64,000 nt of DNA from Calditrichales bacterium MX18-03. Its GTDB lineage: Bacteria; Bacillota; Clostridia; Lutisporales; Lutisporaceae. Both the position numbers and the translations under genes were made by a program. Under the pieces are notes generated by a model, which was given only the letters and a program-made list of their open reading frames with translations, did not search any database and was not told the DNA's origin. Positions 1,279 through 31,915 of the stretch are shown here, one piece after another; the stretch's first letter is position 1; each line of letters starts with the position of its first letter. The stretch covers positions 1,550,001 through 1,614,000 of the forward strand of contig JAJGRE010000001.1 in assembly GCA_021083345.1 (NCBI GenBank), in the 5' to 3' direction.

Positions 1279-2994
1279 ATGATCGGTTATGTGCTCCGGA
1301 ATCTGATCAACAATATGGCGCTCTTGATCATTATCGCTTACCTGATTACTCGGGTGAAGATGTTCAAAGAGCTGCTGACGGAAAATAAGAATACCCTCTA
1401 TGATAAAATTCTGATGGCTGTGATCTTCGGCTTCATCGGCATCCTGGCCACCTATACCGGCACAAACGTCAACGGCGCCATTGCCAATTCCAGGATCATC
1501 GGCGTCCTGGTCGGCGGCATCTTCGGCGGCCCCATTGTCGGTGTAGGGGCCGGTTTGATTGCCGGACTCCACCGCTGGGCTATCGATATCGGCGGCTTTA
1601 CCGCTTTCGCATGCGCGCTGTCCACCATCCTGGAAGGGATAATCGGAGGACTGGCTTCCAAATATGTAAAGAACCTCAGGAGCAATTGGATTCATGCTCT
1701 TGTACTGGGTATCATCGCGGAGCTCCTGCAGATGGGTATTATCCTGCTGATTGCAAAACCCTATGCAGCTGCCCTGGAGCTGGTGCGGATCATCTTTATC
1801 CCCATGGTGCTTTTCAACCCCGTTGGCATTGCCCTTTTTGTGGGATTGATCAACGGCATTTTCAGGGAACAGGAAAAGGAAGCCGCCATCAAGACACAGC
1901 TGGCGCTGCAAATTGCCGAAAAATGCCTGCCCTTTCTGAGGAATGGGCTGGCATCCCAAAAAGACATTCTGGAGGTGGCAAAAACCATCTACAAAATGTC
2001 GGGCGTATCAGCTGTTGCCATCACGGACCGGCACAGCATCCTGGCCCATGTGGGTGTCGGCGAAGACCACCACAAGGAATGCACGCCGATCATGACAAAT
2101 CTGACGCGGGAAAGCATCAGCACCGGCGTACTGCAAATTGCCCATACCAAGCATGAGATCGGATGTACCCATTGGGACTGCAAGCTTAAGTCTGCTGTCA
2201 TCGTCCCCCTTCTGAACAAGAACGATATCATCGGCACCATCAAGCTGTACAAGACCAGGGAGCATGCTATTTCCAATGTTGATGTCCATCTGGCCTTGGG
2301 ACTGGCAAAGCTCTTTTCCAGCCAGCTGGCGCTTTCGGAAATAGAATACCAGATCAAGCTCCGGGAAAAGGCGGAGCTTAAGGCCCTGCAGTCCCAGATC
2401 AATCCCCACTTTCTTTTCAACACGCTGAATACCATCGTTTCCTTCTGCCGTGTAAAGCCGGATAAGGCCCGGGAGCTTTTGATCGATCTGAGCACCCATT
2501 TGCGCAACTCGCTGCAGTTCAACGATGATTTTGTCAGTCTGGATACCGAGCTGAACCATGTAAATGCCTATTTATCCATAGAAAAAGCGCGGTTTGAGGA
2601 AAAACTGACCATTGAGATCAACCGGGAGGAAAACACCGATTGCCTGCTGCCGCAGCTTATCCTTCAGCCCATAGTGGAAAATGCGATTTTGCACGGCCTG
2701 CTGCCCAATAAGGACGGCGGCACGCTGCGGATCGACATTGCACGGGAAAAGGATGAGAGCGCGACAGTCATAACCGTTCAAGATACCGGAAAGGGCATGG
2801 ACCAAAGCCGGATCGACCAGCTATATAACGGACAGAGCTGCGACAACAAGATCGGCCTGAATAATGTGCATAACCGTCTGAAAAGCATCTATGGCAGCCA
2901 GTATGGCCTGGAAATCAAAAGCAGCTACGGCAGCGGCACGCTTGTCCGGCTCAGGATACCACAGGGAACGGCAGGTGAGACGGCTTTATGTTGA
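1279..2994 (+). CDS. lytS: LytS/YehU-type sensor histidine kinase
   Basis: Membrane sensor kinase of 571 residues. The first ~195 residues are a block of hydrophobic helices of the 5TM-LYT type, with glycine-rich turns (VGGIFGGPIVGVGAG). A GAF-like segment follows (about 205-350), then the His_kinase domain with the phospho-acceptor region QINPHFLFNTLN near residue 378 and a HATPase domain (PIVENAILHG, DTGKGM, GLNNVHNRL). Length and order match the LytS family, which senses cell-envelope state or small metabolites such as pyruvate. The ATG follows GGGAGGAATCGCT. The stop overlaps the response-regulator start, so the pair is cotranscribed. Its target genes cannot be seen in this window. Confidence 0.93.
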   Translation: MIGYVLRNLINNMALLIIIAYLITRVKMFKELLTENKNTLYDKILMAVIFGFIGILATYTGTNVNGAIANSRIIGVLVGGIFGGPIVGVGAGLIAGLHRWAIDIGGFTAFACALSTILEGIIGGLASKYVKNLRSNWIHALVLGIIAELLQMGIILLIAKPYAAALELVRIIFIPMVLFNPVGIALFVGLINGIFREQEKEAAIKTQLALQIAEKCLPFLRNGLASQKDILEVAKTIYKMSGVSAVAITDRHSILAHVGVGEDHHKECTPIMTNLTRESISTGVLQIAHTKHEIGCTHWDCKLKSAVIVPLLNKNDIIGTIKLYKTREHAISNVDVHLALGLAKLFSSQLALSEIEYQIKLREKAELKALQSQINPHFLFNTLNTIVSFCRVKPDKARELLIDLSTHLRNSLQFNDDFVSLDTELNHVNAYLSIEKARFEEKLTIEINREENTDCLLPQLILQPIVENAILHGLLPNKDGGTLRIDIAREKDESATVITVQDTGKGMDQSRIDQLYNGQSCDNKIGLNNVHNRLKSIYGSQYGLEIKSSYGSGTLVRLRIPQGTAGETALC

Positions 2995-3734
2995 AAATAC
3001 TCTTAGTGGACGACGAGACACCCTCAAGGCAAGAGCTGCGTTATATCCTGAGCAGTCTGGTGAAGCAGGCCGCCATCGTTGAAGCCAGCAGCGGCGAACA
3101 GGCTTTGCAGCTGGTGCGCCAGGAAGCGGTGGATATCGCTTTTATCGACATCAATATGCATGGCATGGACGGTATAACGCTGTCCCAGGAGCTCAGCAAG
3201 CTGGACGACAGCATTCGGCAGGTTTTTGCCACCGCATACGATCAATATGCCATCAAAGCCTTTGAGTTGAATGCTGTGGATTATGTCCTCAAGCCCTTTG
3301 AGGAGAACCGCATCAAAATTACCGTGGAGCGGCTGCTGAGTGACATGGATAAGAAAAAAACTGCCGAGAAGGATTCGGTACATGCGCTGCCGGAAAAGAC
3401 ACTGAGAAAGATTACTGTCTGGATCAACGGCAGGGCACTGCTGCTTGACATTCATCACGTCGCTTACATCGCTGCAGAGGACAGGGGCTCTCTGATCAAA
3501 ACCTCCGGCGGTATCTTCAGCTCCAAAGAGACGCTGTGTTATTTCGAAAAGAAACTGGAAAAGGACAACTTCCTGCGGGTTCATAGAGGCTATCTGATCA
3601 ACCCGGAGCAGGTCAGCGAGATCCAGCCCTGGTTCAACCAGACTTACATCATTAAGATGACGGGTTTCGAAAAGGATGAGATTCCTGTCAGCCGCAATTA
3701 TATAAAACGCTTTAAGGAGATTTTCGACCTTTGA
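2988..3734 (+). CDS. lytR: LytTR-family response regulator
   Basis: Cytoplasmic response regulator of 248 residues and partner of the upstream LytS kinase; its start overlaps the lytS stop by 7 bases. The receiver domain (1-120) has the acidic pocket DDE near residues 8-10, the phospho-acceptor Asp54 in AFIDINMHG, and the Lys of VLKPFEE. The C-terminal LytTR DNA-binding domain (about 140-245) shows the typical VAYIAAEDRGSLIKT and LRVHRGYLIN segments. LytTR proteins bind paired direct repeats upstream of carrier or murein-hydrolase genes; no such target is obvious next door. Confidence 0.93.
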   Translation: MLKILLVDDETPSRQELRYILSSLVKQAAIVEASSGEQALQLVRQEAVDIAFIDINMHGMDGITLSQELSKLDDSIRQVFATAYDQYAIKAFELNAVDYVLKPFEENRIKITVERLLSDMDKKKTAEKDSVHALPEKTLRKITVWINGRALLLDIHHVAYIAAEDRGSLIKTSGGIFSSKETLCYFEKKLEKDNFLRVHRGYLINPEQVSEIQPWFNQTYIIKMTGFEKDEIPVSRNYIKRFKEIFDL

Positions 3735-3785
3735 CATAAAAGGGACAGCCTTCACCGTCCGGTGAAGGCTGTCCCTTTTATGTCA
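3732..3785. terminator. bidirectional terminator between lytR and sigH
   Basis: A 26-bp perfect inverted repeat (3732-3757 with 3760-3785) with an AAAAGGGACAGCC/GGCTGTCCCTTTT core sits between the convergent lytR and sigH genes. A/T tracts on both sides allow it to stop transcription either way. The lytR stop codon lies at its left edge. Confidence 0.85.
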
Positions 3786-3801
3786 AGCTATGCTCTCATC
3801 C

Positions 3802-4446
3802 TTAAATATCCTTGACCTCAAGATACTTTTCCAATTTCCTCTTTACCCGCTGCAGCGCATTGTCAATAGACTTGACATGCCTGTCCAGATCAACTGCGAT
3901 TTCCTGATAGGACTTGCCCTGAAGATAGGACATCAACACTTCCAGCTCCAGATCGCTTAGAATCTCGCCGATTTTGGACTCGATGGAAACCAGCTCTTCA
4001 CGGCTTATGATGAGTTCTTCAGGATCTGTGATCTTTGTGGCGGTCAATATGTCCAGCAGTGTTCTGTCGGATTCTTCGTCATATATGGGCTTATTAAGGG
4101 AAACGTATGAGTTGAGAGGAATGTGCTTTTGCCTGGTTGCTGTTTTGATGGCGGTTATGATTTGTCTTGTGATGCATAGCTCTGCGAAGGCTCTGAAGGA
4201 AGAAAGCTTGTCGTTTCTGAAGTCCCTGATAGCCTTGTACAAGCCGATCATCCCTTCTTGCACGATGTCTTCCTTGTCTGCTCCAATCAGAAAATAGGAA
4301 CGCGCTTTTGCTCTGACGAAGTTTTTGTACTTGTTGATAATGTACTCCAGCATTACCGCGTTGCCATCTCTGGCATTCAGGACAATTTCCTCGTCCAGCA
4401 TGCTATCAAAACCATCAACCGTTTTCTTTTCTGCATTTGCTTCCAC
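3802..4446 (-). CDS. sigH: RNA polymerase sigma factor SigH
   Basis: Sigma-70 family factor of 214 residues with the SigH pattern. Region 2 holds EYIINKYKNFVRAKA and ADKEDIVQEGMIGLYKAIRDF, followed by AFAELCITRQIITAIKTATR (region 2.4). Region 4 holds LSDLELEVLMSYLQGKSYQEIA near the C terminus. SigH drives entry into sporulation and competence in Firmicutes. It ends the rlmB-side gene string and has its own strong promoter just upstream. The start follows GGAGGCGATCGAGTGG. Confidence 0.93.
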   Translation of the reverse strand: MEANAEKKTVDGFDSMLDEEIVLNARDGNAVMLEYIINKYKNFVRAKARSYFLIGADKEDIVQEGMIGLYKAIRDFRNDKLSSFRAFAELCITRQIITAIKTATRQKHIPLNSYVSLNKPIYDEESDRTLLDILTATKITDPEELIISREELVSIESKIGEILSDLELEVLMSYLQGKSYQEIAVDLDRHVKSIDNALQRVKRKLEKYLEVKDI

Positions 4447-4481
4447 TCGATCGCCTCCAGTCCTATAGAAAACCTATATTC

Positions 4482-4509
4482 ATTATACTATATATGGCCT
4501 TGCAGTCAA
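4482..4509 (-). promoter_or_regulatory. sigma-A promoter of sigH
   Basis: On the minus strand TTGACT (4509-4504), a 16-base spacer and TATAAT (4487-4482) precede sigH by about 35 bases. The -35 box overlaps the stop codon of the small upstream ORF, so sigH can be transcribed independently of rlmB. Confidence 0.65.
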
Positions 4510-4664
4510 GCTTTATTGTTGCCGCGCCGCCATTTTAGAAGGGTGCTGCGTACTTTGGGGCTCACTCTGCCCTCCAGTAGATTCCCATTATATTCAAGCC
4601 GTTCCAGGCATTTCTCCGGCAGGCATCCGTATAGCCCCAGACCCAGCACCACCAGTAGCTCCAT
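4506..4664 (-). CDS. possible small protein, 52 residues, between rlmB and sigH
   Basis: A short ORF fills the rlmB-sigH gap. It starts with a hydrophobic stretch (MELLVVLGLGLYG) and continues into a charged segment ending LLKWRRGNNKA. I do not recognise it. It lies in the rlmB frame directly after the rlmB TAG stop, with no internal stop, so a TTG right after the stop (4685) could also serve as start. No Shine-Dalgarno sequence is visible for either start. It may be a true small gene, a decayed C-terminal extension of RlmB, or chance. Confidence 0.3.
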   Translation of the reverse strand: MELLVVLGLGLYGCLPEKCLERLEYNGNLLEGRVSPKVRSTLLKWRRGNNKA

Positions 4665-4685
4665 CCAATCGGAGGCAGCTACCAA

Positions 4686-5819
4686 CTATTTTACGCTTCG
4701 CTGCTTGTTTATCTCATATACTATTATAGCGGTAGACACTGCTGCATTCAAAGATGAAATTCTACCTTTCATGGGAATGCTTACAAGGAAGTCGCAGTTT
4801 TCTTTGATCAGGCGTCCCAAACCCTCTCCCTCACTGCCGATGACAAGCGCCATGGGACCCTTCAAATCCTTACTGTAGTAAGTTTCCCCTTTCATGTCTG
4901 CACCGATGACCCAAACGCCTTGTTTTTTGAGGTATTCAATGGTTTGGTTTAAATTGGTCACTTTGGCAACAGGCACATACTCCACTGCGCCGGCTGAAGT
5001 CTTGGCAACCACCGGTGTCAGCGCAACCGAACGCCGCTTTGGTATGACCACGCCGTGCACACCGGCTGCATCCGCTGTCCTAAGTATGGATCCCAGATTG
5101 TTGTTGTCGGTTATTTCATCCAACAGAATCAGGAAGGGATCCTCACCTTTGTCCTTGGCAATCTGCAGTATATCCTCCACCTCGTAATACTTGTACAGTG
5201 CTGCAGACGCAATGACACCCTGATGGTTTCTCGTGGTAGAGAGTCCATCCAGTTTTACCTTGTCGACTTCCTTGATCAGGATGTTCTTATCCCGGGCCAT
5301 AGCGATGATCTGCCGGATGGAGCCAATGCCTTCGCCCTTCTGAACAAAAATCTTATCGATCTCCCTGCCGGACTTCAGTGCTTCCAGAACCGGGTTCCTG
5401 CCTTCGATCAGGTTAATGGAGTCTTCGTTATCCGGCTCGTCAAAGAACTGCGGTCTTTGCTTCAACGGCTGCTCTCTCCCAGGCCCTTTCTTTTTCCAGT
5501 CTTCCCTCACCGGCTTAGCGTCCGGCCGGTCACCGGACCTGTCGAATTTCGGCTTATCCGATTTCGGTTTGCCAAACTTTGGTTTGTCAAACTTTGGTTT
5601 GTCGAATTTTGGCTTGTCATATCTGGGATTGTCCCCTGCGGGTCTGTCTGTTCTAGGTTTGTCTGTTCCGGGTTTATCATATCTGGATTTATCTGCACCC
5701 GGTCTGTCCGATTTGAATTTGTCGGGCTGCGATTTCCGTGAACCCGGTTTGAAGCCATCCTGTTTTTTGAAGCCGCCTTTACGCGGGCCGCCGGAACTGG
5801 TGTTTTTACTGTATGCCAT
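4686..5819 (-). CDS. rlmB: 23S rRNA (guanosine-2'-O-)-methyltransferase RlmB (TrmH/SpoU family) with repetitive N-terminal tail
   Basis: SpoU-family rRNA ribose methylase of 377 residues. From about residue 134 it matches the RlmB core: substrate-binding domain (INLIEGRNPVLEALKSG), then motif 1 ILLDEITDNNNLGSILRTA, motif 2 LVIGSEGEGL and motif 3 IPMKGRISSLNAAVSTAI. These form the knotted SAM-binding fold that methylates G2251-type positions of 23S rRNA. The first ~130 residues are a basic, low-complexity tail made of degenerate DKP(K/R)F-type repeats, absent from classical RlmB, which is near 245 residues. The tail probably adds RNA affinity (inference). Confidence 0.9.
   Translation of the reverse strand: MAYSKNTSSGGPRKGGFKKQDGFKPGSRKSQPDKFKSDRPGADKSRYDKPGTDKPRTDRPAGDNPRYDKPKFDKPKFDKPKFGKPKSDKPKFDRSGDRPDAKPVREDWKKKGPGREQPLKQRPQFFDEPDNEDSINLIEGRNPVLEALKSGREIDKIFVQKGEGIGSIRQIIAMARDKNILIKEVDKVKLDGLSTTRNHQGVIASAALYKYYEVEDILQIAKDKGEDPFLILLDEITDNNNLGSILRTADAAGVHGVVIPKRRSVALTPVVAKTSAGAVEYVPVAKVTNLNQTIEYLKKQGVWVIGADMKGETYYSKDLKGPMALVIGSEGEGLGRLIKENCDFLVSIPMKGRISSLNAAVSTAIIVYEINKQRSVK
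5538..5723 (-). repeat. degenerate 15-bp coding repeats in the RlmB tail
   Basis: Residues 33-94 of RlmB repeat a five-residue unit of the form (F/Y/T)DKP(K/R). The clearest copies, four consecutive KPKF units, lie near 5560-5620, where 15-base units differ only at one or two bases. This is in-frame expansion inside a coding region, not a CRISPR or intergenic repeat. Confidence 0.75.
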
Positions 5820-9293: not shown

Positions 9294-10691
<1,398 letters not shown>

Positions 10692-10855: not shown

Positions 10856-11056
10856 TACCGCCTCGTAAAGAGGCGGGTCAGTCCGCGGTTCCACTCTTTT
10901 GAATGCTCATCCAGTTAACGGTATCCCGCCGGTGAATACTTGTGTTCCTCACCGGTGCTCCCGGGCGCACTTCCCTCCAAGCCATCCCGATCTCCCTCTC
11001 AGCCTCCGGGGACATCTCTCTGTTGGTCTCCTGGAATTACTCTTCCCGCTCATAGC
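10848..11056 (-). promoter_or_regulatory. T-box riboswitch, cysteine specifier, of cysS
   Basis: The minus strand carries the T-box core AGAGTGGAACCGCGGA (10897-10882), the antiterminator element that binds the uncharged tRNA acceptor end. It is followed by a terminator stem CCGCCTC/GAGGCGG (10876-10858) and a T run. Upstream are an AGAGAG/GGCTGAGAG stem I core (about 11020-10995), the likely specifier TGC (Cys) at 10969-10967, and a stem III hairpin CCGGTGA/TCACCGG. Low charging of tRNA-Cys should switch on cysS. The specifier choice rests on its position before stem III and the identity of the gene. Confidence 0.92.
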
Positions 11057-11129
11057 ATCAATTATTCAGTTATCTATATTATTTAGGTTATGTCATTGTA
11101 TGTCAATAGTGAATTTGCTGATGAAAAGA

Positions 11130-28978: not shown

Positions 28979-30238
28979 ATGGCATTTTTTAATGGACATA
29001 AACTGGAGCAAAACGAAAACGGCTACATAGTCACATTATACGTGGATGAGCACATGACGGAATTTGCCGATGAGCTGCTGCGTGGCAGCAAAGGGGAGCT
29101 TGACAGCCTGGGTGACAATATCCAGCGTTACATCAGTGAAAAGCTTCCTGACCTGAAGATTGCAGCCATCAGGCTGATGGTGGGCACACTTCTGGTTGCC
29201 ACCATTCCTTTCGGCACATCGGAAATACAAACCGTGGAGGCTGCCACCACAGACACTGTCCAACAGGCATATACGACTTATAAGGTGGTCTCCGGCGACA
29301 GCCTTTGGACCATTTCACGAAAATTCAATGTTACCGTGGATGCCATCAAATCCCTGAACGGCATGACCGGAGACACCATCTATCCGGACCAGACCCTGAA
29401 GATACCGTCTTCAGCAGCACCCCAGACATCCACTGTATCCAACTATACCGTTGCGGCAGGGGACAGCCTTTGGATCATTTCACGGAAGTTCAATACCACC
29501 GTGGATGGGTTAAAGCTGTTGAACGGTTTGACCGCCGATACCATCCTGGTAGGGCAGGTACTGAAGGTTCCCGGAACTATTGCCGCCCCTGCACCGGTGC
29601 CCTCACCAACACCAACGCCGACACCTGCGCCGACACAGCCCTATGTTACTTACACCAGCCACACAGTGGTATCAGGTGAAAACGGCTGGACCATCAGCCT
29701 GAAATACGGCATACCGATGACAGAGCTTCTGAAAGTCAATAACCTGACCCAAAGCAGCGTGCTCAAAATCGGCCAGGTATTGAAGATACCGGTCCATATT
29801 GTACCGGTAATGCAGACGCCCGGTGCCAAATATGGAGAGAACCTGGACTGGTGGACCGGTGCGCAGTACGTTTTCCCCATCGGGAAGGTTGCCAAGGTAA
29901 CTGATTTCAAGACCGGCAAGACTTTTATGATCAAACGGACCATCGGGGCTAACCATGCCGACTGCGAGCCCTTGACCGCAGCCGACGCCGCTGTCGTCAA
30001 GTCCATTTGGGGAGGCAGCTATTCCTGGACTCCAAGAGCCGTTATCGTAGAAGTAGACGGAAGGCGCCTGGCTGCTTCCATGTCTTCAATGCCCCATGAT
30101 GTGCAATATATCACCGACAACGGCTTCAATGGCCACTTCGACCTTCATTTCCGCAACAGCACGCGACATAAGGACGGCCTGGTGGATCCGGCCCACCAGG
30201 CCCAGATCAAAATCGCAGCCGGTGTAACGGGAATATAG
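28979..30238 (+). CDS. LysM-repeat cell-wall protein with conserved C-terminal domain
   Basis: 419 residues. A polar N-terminal region (1-59) precedes one hydrophobic helix (60-79), then LysM 1 (about 100-143), LysM 2 (155-198), a Pro/Thr linker (203-220), LysM 3 (228-272) and a ~135-residue C-terminal domain with TFMIKRTIGANHADCEPLT, RAVIVEVDGRRLAASMSSMPH and GHFDLHFRNSTRHKDG. LysM modules bind peptidoglycan. The C-terminal domain recurs in clostridial LysM proteins; the invariant His/Cys/Asp residues hint at an enzyme, but I know no assigned activity. Start set by AAGGAGGAGGCTACGA. Confidence 0.85.
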   Translation: MAFFNGHKLEQNENGYIVTLYVDEHMTEFADELLRGSKGELDSLGDNIQRYISEKLPDLKIAAIRLMVGTLLVATIPFGTSEIQTVEAATTDTVQQAYTTYKVVSGDSLWTISRKFNVTVDAIKSLNGMTGDTIYPDQTLKIPSSAAPQTSTVSNYTVAAGDSLWIISRKFNTTVDGLKLLNGLTADTILVGQVLKVPGTIAAPAPVPSPTPTPTPAPTQPYVTYTSHTVVSGENGWTISLKYGIPMTELLKVNNLTQSSVLKIGQVLKIPVHIVPVMQTPGAKYGENLDWWTGAQYVFPIGKVAKVTDFKTGKTFMIKRTIGANHADCEPLTAADAAVVKSIWGGSYSWTPRAVIVEVDGRRLAASMSSMPHDVQYITDNGFNGHFDLHFRNSTRHKDGLVDPAHQAQIKIAAGVTGI

Positions 30239-30267
30239 TTTACAACCTGATTTTAATGTGCTAGACT
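30239..30267 (+). promoter_or_regulatory. putative promoter of the cysS2 leader
   Basis: TTTACA (30239-30244), 17 bases, TAGACT (30262-30267), starting right at the LysM gene stop. It would begin the leader transcript about 27 bases before the leader-peptide ATG. Confidence 0.5.
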
Positions 30268-30299
30268 AATATAAATTACTGAATCAGGAGGTCATGCAA

Positions 30300-30368
30300 A
30301 TGTTGTGTTGTTATACTTGCAAGTGTTCTGTCTGCAATCGCATAACAGGCATGGTCTGCGTATTTTGA
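30300..30368 (+). CDS. cysteine-rich leader peptide, 22 residues
   Basis: A 22-codon ORF after CAGGAGGTCATGCAA (ideal spacing). Six of 22 codons are Cys, at positions 3, 4, 7, 9, 12 and 20 (MLCCYTCKCSVC... with a VCVF end). The peptide is too small for a stable fold on its own, and the next gene is a cysteinyl-tRNA synthetase. Its use as a sensor of Cys-tRNA-Cys supply by ribosome stalling is the natural reading. A metal-binding microprotein is the alternative. Confidence 0.75.
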   Translation: MLCCYTCKCSVCNRITGMVCVF

Positions 30369-30398
30369 AAGCTTCATAGCTTCATTCCAATGCTCAAA

Positions 30399-30469
30399 AA
30401 TGCTGCAGGCATGTCTCTGCAGCATTCAATATTTTTTGACTCATGCTGCAGAAGCCTGCAGCTTTTTTT
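30399..30469 (+). terminator. tandem terminators with antiterminator pairing (cysS2 attenuator)
   Basis: Terminator 1: AATGCTGCAG (30399-30408) with CTGCAGCATT (30417-30426), then ATATTTTTT. Terminator 2: GCTGCAG (30445-30451) with CTGCAGC (30456-30462), then TTTTTTT. The 3' arm of terminator 1 (30417-30425, CTGCAGCAT) is also perfectly complementary to ATGCTGCAG (30443-30451), the 5' arm of terminator 2, so one alternative pairing would disrupt both terminators. A stalled ribosome on the leader ORF could select among these folds. Confidence 0.75.
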
Positions 30470-30502
30470 GTGAAAAAAAGTAAAAGAAAGGATGGGTCAT
30501 CA

Positions 30503-31915
30503 ATGGATTTTTACATCTACAACACCCTGACCGGGGAAAAGGCTGCCTTCAAGCCGGTATCCGCCGGAAAAGCAGGGATCTATGCGTGCGGTCCCACCGT
30601 TTACAACTACGCCCACATCGGCAATCTGCGCACTTATGTTTTTGAGGATATCCTCGTCAAGTCCCTGCAATACTTTCGCTATCAAGTGAAGCACGTGATG
30701 AACGTCACGGATGTAGGGCATTTGGAATCCGACAGCGATACCGGGGAGGATAAAATGGCAAAAGGCTCCGAAAGGGAAGGCAAAAGCGTCTGGGAAATCG
30801 CACGTTTCTATGAGAATGCATTCTTTGAAGACTGCAGACGGCTTAATATCAGAAGGCCGGATGTGGTATGCCGTGCTACCGAGCACATTGAAGATATGAT
30901 CTCCTTGATCCGCGCGCTTGAGAGGAAAGGCTATACCTATACCGCCAACGGCAATGTCTATTTCTCTATCGACAAGTTTCCGGATTACAGCAAGCTGGCC
31001 GACATGACCCTGGATGAACTGCAGGCTGGTAGTCGGATCGAGGTAGACCCCCACAAGAAAAACCCTCTGGATTTTGTGCTGTGGTTCACCAATTCCAAGT
31101 TCAAAAACCAGATCATGCAGTGGGCTTCTCCATGGGGCACCGGCTTTCCGGGCTGGCATATCGAGTGCTCTGCCATGTCCATGAAATACTTGGGAGATTC
31201 CATTGACATACACTGCGGCGGTATTGACCACATCCCCGTCCACCACACCAATGAGATTGCTCAATCGGAGGCTGCCACCGGGCATCAATGGGTCAACTAC
31301 TGGCTCCACGGGGAATTCCTGGTTGTAGACGGCAGCAAAATGGCAAAATCCGGCGGCGGATTTCTCACGCTGACACGGCTTATTGAAAAAGGCTTCAATG
31401 CCCTTGACTTCCGCTTCCTCTGCCTCCAGTCCCGCTACAGAAAGCAGCTCCGCTTTAGCTTTGAGACCTTGAGTGATGCCCAAACGGCCTATAGGAAGCT
31501 GAAGGGTCGCATACAGTCGATGGTTGAGGGGATCCATGAAGGGCAGCCGGTCAGGCCCGAAAAAATGATACCCTATAAAAACCTGTTTGCAGGACATATC
31601 GGTGATGACCTCAACACCCCCAATGCGCTGACTGTTTTGTGGGATGTGCTAAAGGACGAAGCGCTGCATCCCGGCGAAAAACAGCTGCTGGTGGAGGACT
31701 TTGACCGCATCTTCTCTTTGGACCTTCTGACTCCGCCGGAAAAGCAGATCCCGATATCTGATGAAGTACGGATCAAAGAGCTTGTTGAGGAAAGAAACCG
31801 GTACCGTGAAGAAAAGAATTGGGCGGAAGCCGACAGGATACGCCGCCTGCTTTTCGAAATGGGGATCATCCTCTCCGATGCAAACGGCGGAACAACCTGG
31901 GAAGTGAGACTATAA
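30503..31915 (+). CDS. cysS: cysteine--tRNA ligase, second copy
   Basis: Class I CysRS of 470 residues, clearly different from the copy at 9.3 kb. Motifs: [28 protein letters not shown], the zinc/active-site block DHIPVHHTNEIAQSE (HHENEIAQ in the standard type), and KMAKSGGG in place of KMSKSLGN. C-terminal region ends GIILSDANGGTTWEVRL. Catalytic residues look intact. ATG 30503 follows AAAGGATGGG; the frame extends upstream only through the attenuator. Possible roles: back-up CysRS, or Cys persulfide production. Preceded by the Cys leader and attenuator. Confidence 0.93.
   Translation: MDFYIYNTLTGEKAAFKPVSAGKAGIYACGPTVYNYAHIGNLRTYVFEDILVKSLQYFRYQVKHVMNVTDVGHLESDSDTGEDKMAKGSEREGKSVWEIARFYENAFFEDCRRLNIRRPDVVCRATEHIEDMISLIRALERKGYTYTANGNVYFSIDKFPDYSKLADMTLDELQAGSRIEVDPHKKNPLDFVLWFTNSKFKNQIMQWASPWGTGFPGWHIECSAMSMKYLGDSIDIHCGGIDHIPVHHTNEIAQSEAATGHQWVNYWLHGEFLVVDGSKMAKSGGGFLTLTRLIEKGFNALDFRFLCLQSRYRKQLRFSFETLSDAQTAYRKLKGRIQSMVEGIHEGQPVRPEKMIPYKNLFAGHIGDDLNTPNALTVLWDVLKDEALHPGEKQLLVEDFDRIFSLDLLTPPEKQIPISDEVRIKELVEERNRYREEKNWAEADRIRRLLFEMGIILSDANGGTTWEVRL

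Follow-up and report, generated by a model that had tools for sequence, protein, structure and literature searches.

The window analyzed here is the whole 64,000-nucleotide stretch, with coordinates counted from its first letter, and it contains both of the full cysS genes present in the genome. One of them, cysS2 (30503-31915, plus strand), starts with the ATG at 30503 and encodes a PRK14536-like cysteinyl-tRNA synthetase (CysRS) with intact CysRS motifs, for which 3sp1_A is the closest solved structure by sequence, confirming that an intact second cysS gene lies downstream of the leader proposed for it. The other, cysS1 (9294-10691, minus strand; 610.9 bits to TIGR00435), is equipped with a complete Cys T-box leader (10866-11062, minus strand; Rfam T-box, 85.8 bits, E 2.1e-19) whose specifier is UGC as judged by eye in the alignment, and which escaped the default Rfam scan because its score falls below the gathering score of 93. 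At gathering cut-offs the Rfam scan of the window was empty, the cysS2 leader matching no Rfam family, and a search of 30230-30520 gave no T-box match up to E 1, which speaks against a T-box at the cysS2 leader. Among 15 relatives scanned, a cysS1 T-box was found in one from the same family (L201), and none was detected at E 1e-5 in the 14 other genomes carrying the cysS2 leader.

The region upstream of cysS2 opens with a putative sigma-70-type promoter (30239-30267, plus strand), TTTACA-17-TAGACT with a TG-extended -10, which scored 9/12 in a consensus scan that returned 3 matches in comparison to 1.8 expected in shuffles and is therefore weak evidence taken alone. It is followed by a perfect Shine-Dalgarno (SD) sequence, AGGAGG (30286-30291, plus strand), with similar SDs in the orthologous leaders, and by a leader ORF (30300-30368, plus strand) that runs for 22 codons from the ATG at 30300 to the stop codon at 30366-30368 and encodes MLCCYTCKCSVCNRITGMVCVF. 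Its six Cys codons (TGT TGT TGC TGT TGC TGC) are clustered less than in relatives, with a Cys-Cys pair followed by single Cys codons. The original prediction of a 22-codon ORF with an ideal ribosome-binding site and six Cys codons thus describes the locus correctly. When all short ORFs of 10-40 codons with a good SD were counted over the whole window, only one of 82, the cysS2 leader ORF itself, contained at least four Cys, and the mean Cys fraction was 0.035. In a non-exhaustive scan of the same genome for further Cys leaders with a loose pattern, one of the two candidates examined proved to be part of a coding region and the other an ordinary gene.

Relatives of CysRS2 at 55-66% identity are encoded in 56 of 207 Clostridiaceae genomes, and are rare elsewhere in a sample drawn across the class. 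Each cysS2 locus was oriented by tblastn and its upstream region was then inspected, revealing SD-led uORFs with runs of Cys codons upstream of genes of the cysS2 type at 24 loci besides the window, and hence a set of 25 cysS2-linked leaders including the window, some of which are from close relatives. They occur in C. thailandense, C. muellerianum, C. carboxidivorans, C. drakei, Clostridium sp. OS1-26, two Oceanirhabdus and further genomes, with leader peptides such as MCCCLNCFNFHLKSNTTCVH in C. carboxidivorans and one beginning MKLLVTCCCCCLNIKENLKQHLCGQ in Oceanirhabdus. The Cys run starts at codon 2-5 (codon 7 in Oceanirhabdus), and outside it the peptides vary in sequence and in length, from 13 to 33 residues. 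The common order is SD, start codon, Cys run, a segment near the end of the uORF here termed R2, and a terminator with a mostly CTGCAG-like core. The conservation of Cys codons looked for among orthologous leaders is accordingly found at those cysS2 loci that have the uORF. Inspection of upstream regions also showed many cysS2 loci without a Cys uORF, for example in C. ljungdahlii, C. tyrobutyricum and a large genus (g225) whose inspected members keep a similar terminator and lack the Cys uORF. On the CysRS2 tree, in which the window sits on a long branch, the leader types cluster, requiring 7 changes versus 22 with shuffled labels. We judge from these comparisons that the Cys uORF before cysS2 is not a chance feature, since leaders of this kind are found repeatedly upstream of cysS2 orthologues, a recurrence that we regard as decisive.

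Several loci deserve separate mention. Terminator-like hairpins precede cysS2, with the Cys uORF missing, at L070, L076, L092 (g225), L071 and L113. The sole CysRS found in genomes G376 and G462 is of the cysS2 type, no cysS1 being found, and G376 has a Cys leader. At L155 (G553) the Cys leader stands upstream of a cysS2 split into two frames, while at L154 (G504) three ORFs of 374, 662 and 124 aa (1289-4778), resembling Tn554-type transposition genes by eye, separate the Cys leader from cysS2. A scan of the 207 Clostridiaceae genomes for the pattern GGAG-ATG-Cys4 yielded short in-frame uORFs that at the inspected loci were cysS2 leaders, with the exceptions of L159 and L139; matches elsewhere turned out to be longer Cys-rich proteins, frame artefacts or a chance antisense match (L139). 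L159 (G566, position 294) is an SD-led 37-codon ORF beginning MSHKRNCCCC, with Cys4 in frame.

Both terminators predicted after the leader ORF are present, each with a T tract: terminator 1 at 30399-30426, with its T tract extending to 30437, and terminator 2 at 30445-30462, with T7 extending to 30469. In the RNA (plus strand throughout), the 5' arm of terminator 1, arm A (30399-30409), pairs with its 3' arm, arm B (30416-30429), ahead of the first U tract (CAATATTTTTT; 30427-30437). Arm B also serves as the 5' strand of an inner stem with arm C (30436-30452), a pairing that covaries in relatives. Arm D (30454-30462), which precedes the second U tract (T7; 30463-30469), can pair with C, and can pair with A (as 30402-30410) to close a nested second terminator, A:D around B:C. 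Two U tracts occur in nine leaders, and in 9/9 this stretch folds most stably in the nested form, with z values of -6.3 to -9.8 (-6.5 in the window). Pair counts on seven tandem leaders, with the window and L116 omitted, gave six pairs changed on both sides for the nested form and a covariation score that none of 500 shuffles reached. The covarying stems sought in related leaders are the nested A:D and B:C. The combination of A:B with C:D did no better than shuffles, A:B itself being paired in 100% of cells and C:D being broken at two pairs in 4/7 tandem leaders, and these counts do not support it as the form of the double terminator that is conserved. Searching the 207 genomes with a covariance model built on the nested element recovered its seven source loci and no convincing site outside cysS2 leaders, with just weak or opposite-strand matches. 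The nested pairing is intact in L116 (G556), which carries an inverted-repeat insertion in the loop of the B:C hairpin.

The complementarity between the 3' arm of terminator 1 and the 5' arm of terminator 2, from which a mutually exclusive antiterminator had been proposed, is confirmed in the sequence, but it is not by itself the antiterminator: nested fold and pair counts favor A:D with B:C, so that B:C is real yet forms the inner stem of the second terminator. Since B:C also forms in the terminated nested structure, it cannot alone decide the outcome. That arm A is common to both terminators appears reasonably probable, and as A would serve both, its capture by another segment should disable both.

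A candidate for such a segment is R2. In the window, the SD flank R1 (AGGTCATGC; 30289-30297, plus strand) is complementary, by folding, to GCATGGTCT at 30349-30357 with two G-U pairs, and R2 (GGCATGGTCTGCGTATTTTG; 30348-30367, plus strand), which we propose as the antiterminator strand, pairs with roughly 30395-30413 in the stalled-ribosome fold. This R2 was picked by eye from a fold of the RNA to the loop of terminator 1 with the ribosome stalled on Cys; the automatic choice was a different segment, with p 0.088 for R2:A. Across 22 leaders, pairing of R1 with its own leader averaged -10.9 kcal/mol versus -7.7 kcal/mol after permutation, with 0/20000 permutations as low. The R1:R2 hairpin of the leaders had z values from +0.9 to -5.7, that of the window being no more stable than shuffles (z -0.76). 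Complementarity between R2 and A exceeded that of dinucleotide shuffles overall (Fisher, 8e-14), individual leaders varying, and was weak or absent for the automatic R2 of the window and in L009, L069, L103 and L110, four single-terminator leaders where the antiterminator signal is weak. Because the leaders are related, the tests are not independent. When only RNA up to the loop of terminator 1 was considered, in 26 leaders (the 25 cysS2 leaders and L161, described below), the mean probability of A:R2 pairing was 0.21 with no ribosome, 0.23 with the ribosome at the stop codon, a state whose definition already masks R2 in many leaders, and 0.58 with the ribosome stalled on the Cys codons; the stalled value exceeded that without ribosome in 26/26. 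These probabilities are uninformative for the window, where the automatic R2 is not the segment at 30348-30367 seen in the stalled fold and where arm A also pairs upstream in the fold without a ribosome. An antiterminator segment competing for the 5' arm of the terminator is predicted across the leader set, and the modeled folds suggest that it is likely R2, at the end of the uORF, pairing with arm A.

Cys-dependent attenuation upstream of cysS2 is, on the comparative sequence evidence, very probable, and the best explanation, which we hold with good though lesser confidence, is a ribosome-mediated transcription attenuator that senses the supply of Cys-tRNA(Cys) and controls cysS2. With ample Cys-tRNA, the ribosome would reach the stop codon and cover R2, and with no ribosome R2 would tend to fold with the SD region in the R1:R2 hairpin; either way, arm A would be left free to form terminator 1 (A:B), and polymerases that pass it would meet the nested second terminator (A:D over B:C) and the second U tract. 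Under Cys shortage, the ribosome would stall early in the uORF, on its Cys codons, and by covering R1 would free R2, which would capture A before B is made. Neither A:B nor A:D could then form, B would fold with C, and transcription would reach cysS2. Stalling, readthrough, the cysteine response and joint control of both terminators are what we infer from this arrangement. Once the RNA is complete, the tandem leaders favor the nested terminator at every ribosome position and most leaders favor A:B, so that folding at equilibrium does not account for the switch; with the terminators winning at equilibrium, control would have to be kinetic and decided during transcription. For the fuller scheme, in which one stalled ribosome switches off two nested terminators through the choice of R2, B or D as partner of A, and in which cysS1 with its T-box answers to uncharged tRNA(Cys) and cysS2 with its leader peptide separately to the supply of Cys-tRNA, we put the chances at about even.

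The same sensor could operate differently if terminator 1 (A:B) and terminator 2 (C:D) were separate hairpins and B:C formed as the antiterminator upon ribosome stalling. In the window this reading has some appeal, as C:D by itself makes a fair hairpin (-12.3 kcal/mol), while B:C (-18.1 kcal/mol) excludes both A:B and C:D, but C:D amounts to just -1.0 to -6.5 kcal/mol in L116, L117, L119, L120 and L154 and shows no covariation, whereas A:D and B:C covary, and B:C is part of the terminated nested structure too. We therefore consider it unlikely, while noting that B:C prevails once A is sequestered and so would contribute to readthrough in the preferred model as well.

Another reading would make the leader a relic in the genome of the window, its uORF and terminators inherited and its regulation lost. 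The broken-up Cys run and the unexceptional R1:R2 hairpin of the window are what such decay might leave, and other lineages lack the uORF; against this, the SD, six Cys codons, complementarity of R1 with R2 and of R2 with A, and the nested terminator have persisted along a long branch, and loss of regulation seems very unlikely. It is hardly credible that the uORF instead encodes a functional Cys-rich peptide with a metal or redox role, the terminators merely ending a short transcript. Small Cys-rich proteins do exist, and some of the Cys4 matches were longer proteins of this kind, but the peptides are variable outside the Cys run, in length as in sequence, the uORF region is constrained as RNA, and the loci are tied to cysS2. 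The attenuator reading draws support from the conserved Cys codons and the covarying stems, as proposed at the outset for a cysteine leader peptide before a second clostridial cysS.

A second family of Cys leaders was found upstream of an mccB-like gene (in another clostridial family, f42), where 29 of 30 fetched loci (L227-L255) carry an SD-led uORF containing three or more Cys codons, for example MKYMCCCCMSITRAMDNCCLNMIRCN in L227. In the one operon that was read (L161), cysK-like and metNI-like genes follow downstream, these names, like mccB-like, coming from reading the translations. In 27/29 leaders a GGGC element within the uORF has a matching GCCCGG element downstream, which in the folded examples sits at the terminator arm. 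Swapping of SD flanks among 24 non-redundant leaders gave a mean of -13.0 kcal/mol for the leaders' own flanks versus -9.9 kcal/mol for swapped ones (0/20000 permutations), with variation among individual leaders. Seven loci of the family gave no match to Rfam at E 0.01. The two families may be independent, their sequences being unrelated by eye, and since neither the cysS2 leader nor the f42 family matched an Rfam family, such devices have probably been overlooked in clostridia.

Attenuators of the trp/his type in Enterobacteria combine a short leader ORF rich in cognate codons with a protector hairpin and competing antiterminator and terminator, and BCAA leaders are a precedent in Firmicutes. 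The cysS2 leader shares the leader ORF rich in cognate codons and the predicted competition between antiterminator and terminator; it differs in that the Cys codons lie near the very start, in that the flank of the leader's own SD serves as R1, and in that the tandem subtype has two nested terminators on one 5' arm. Closest in target is the uORFC-8-2 motif of Rhodobacterales, which likewise has a uORF with conserved tandem Cys codons, a terminator and proposed attenuation upstream of cysS; it is alpha-proteobacterial, usually has Cys-Cys at codons 14-15 and two prominent stems, and a nested double terminator is not among the features given in the text consulted (PMC8632094). Runs of Cys codons also mark actinobacterial leader ORFs of cysteine genes; there the run lies close to the stop codon, a conserved terminator is absent, and the targets are cys operons and cbs, not cysS (PMC1262725). 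Cys T-boxes, which occur in clostridia and are of the type present on cysS1, likewise link tRNA(Cys) to premature termination, but read uncharged tRNA directly and have no leader peptide (PMC2940859). The Salmonella mgtCBR tandem attenuators also involve two attenuation decisions per leader, with two ORFs, two signals and, in the portion of the account available, terminators not on one common arm (PMC3641672).

The original prediction that such a leader would be unusual for a clostridial aminoacyl-tRNA synthetase gene is fair, but leader-peptide attenuators as such have been reported in Firmicutes. His leader peptides precede hisZ and hisS* paralogues in bacilli, where another hisS has a T-box (PMC2965389), and his operons in Clostridioides, Lutispora and other Firmicutes (PMC9413887); a leucine-rich attenuator peptide of S. 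aureus is a further case (PMC5794164). The bacilli resemble the present genome in having a leader peptide on a duplicated synthetase gene and a T-box on the other paralogue (PMC2965389), while the Firmicutes His leaders concern histidine and other genes and sequences (PMC2965389, PMC9413887). A literature search, in which few subscription papers were covered and which leaves absence unproven, returned no clostridial Cys leader and no terminators sharing an arm.

Our results would extend leader-peptide attenuation to a clostridial aminoacyl-tRNA synthetase gene and suggest a compact gating of two terminators by one RNA arm. With a Cys T-box on cysS1, two RNA sensors would guard the two cysS paralogues, offering a natural side-by-side comparison of two sensors of the same tRNA within one cell. 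If this is true, loss of tRNA(Cys), for example, would trigger just the leader-peptide sensor of cysS2.
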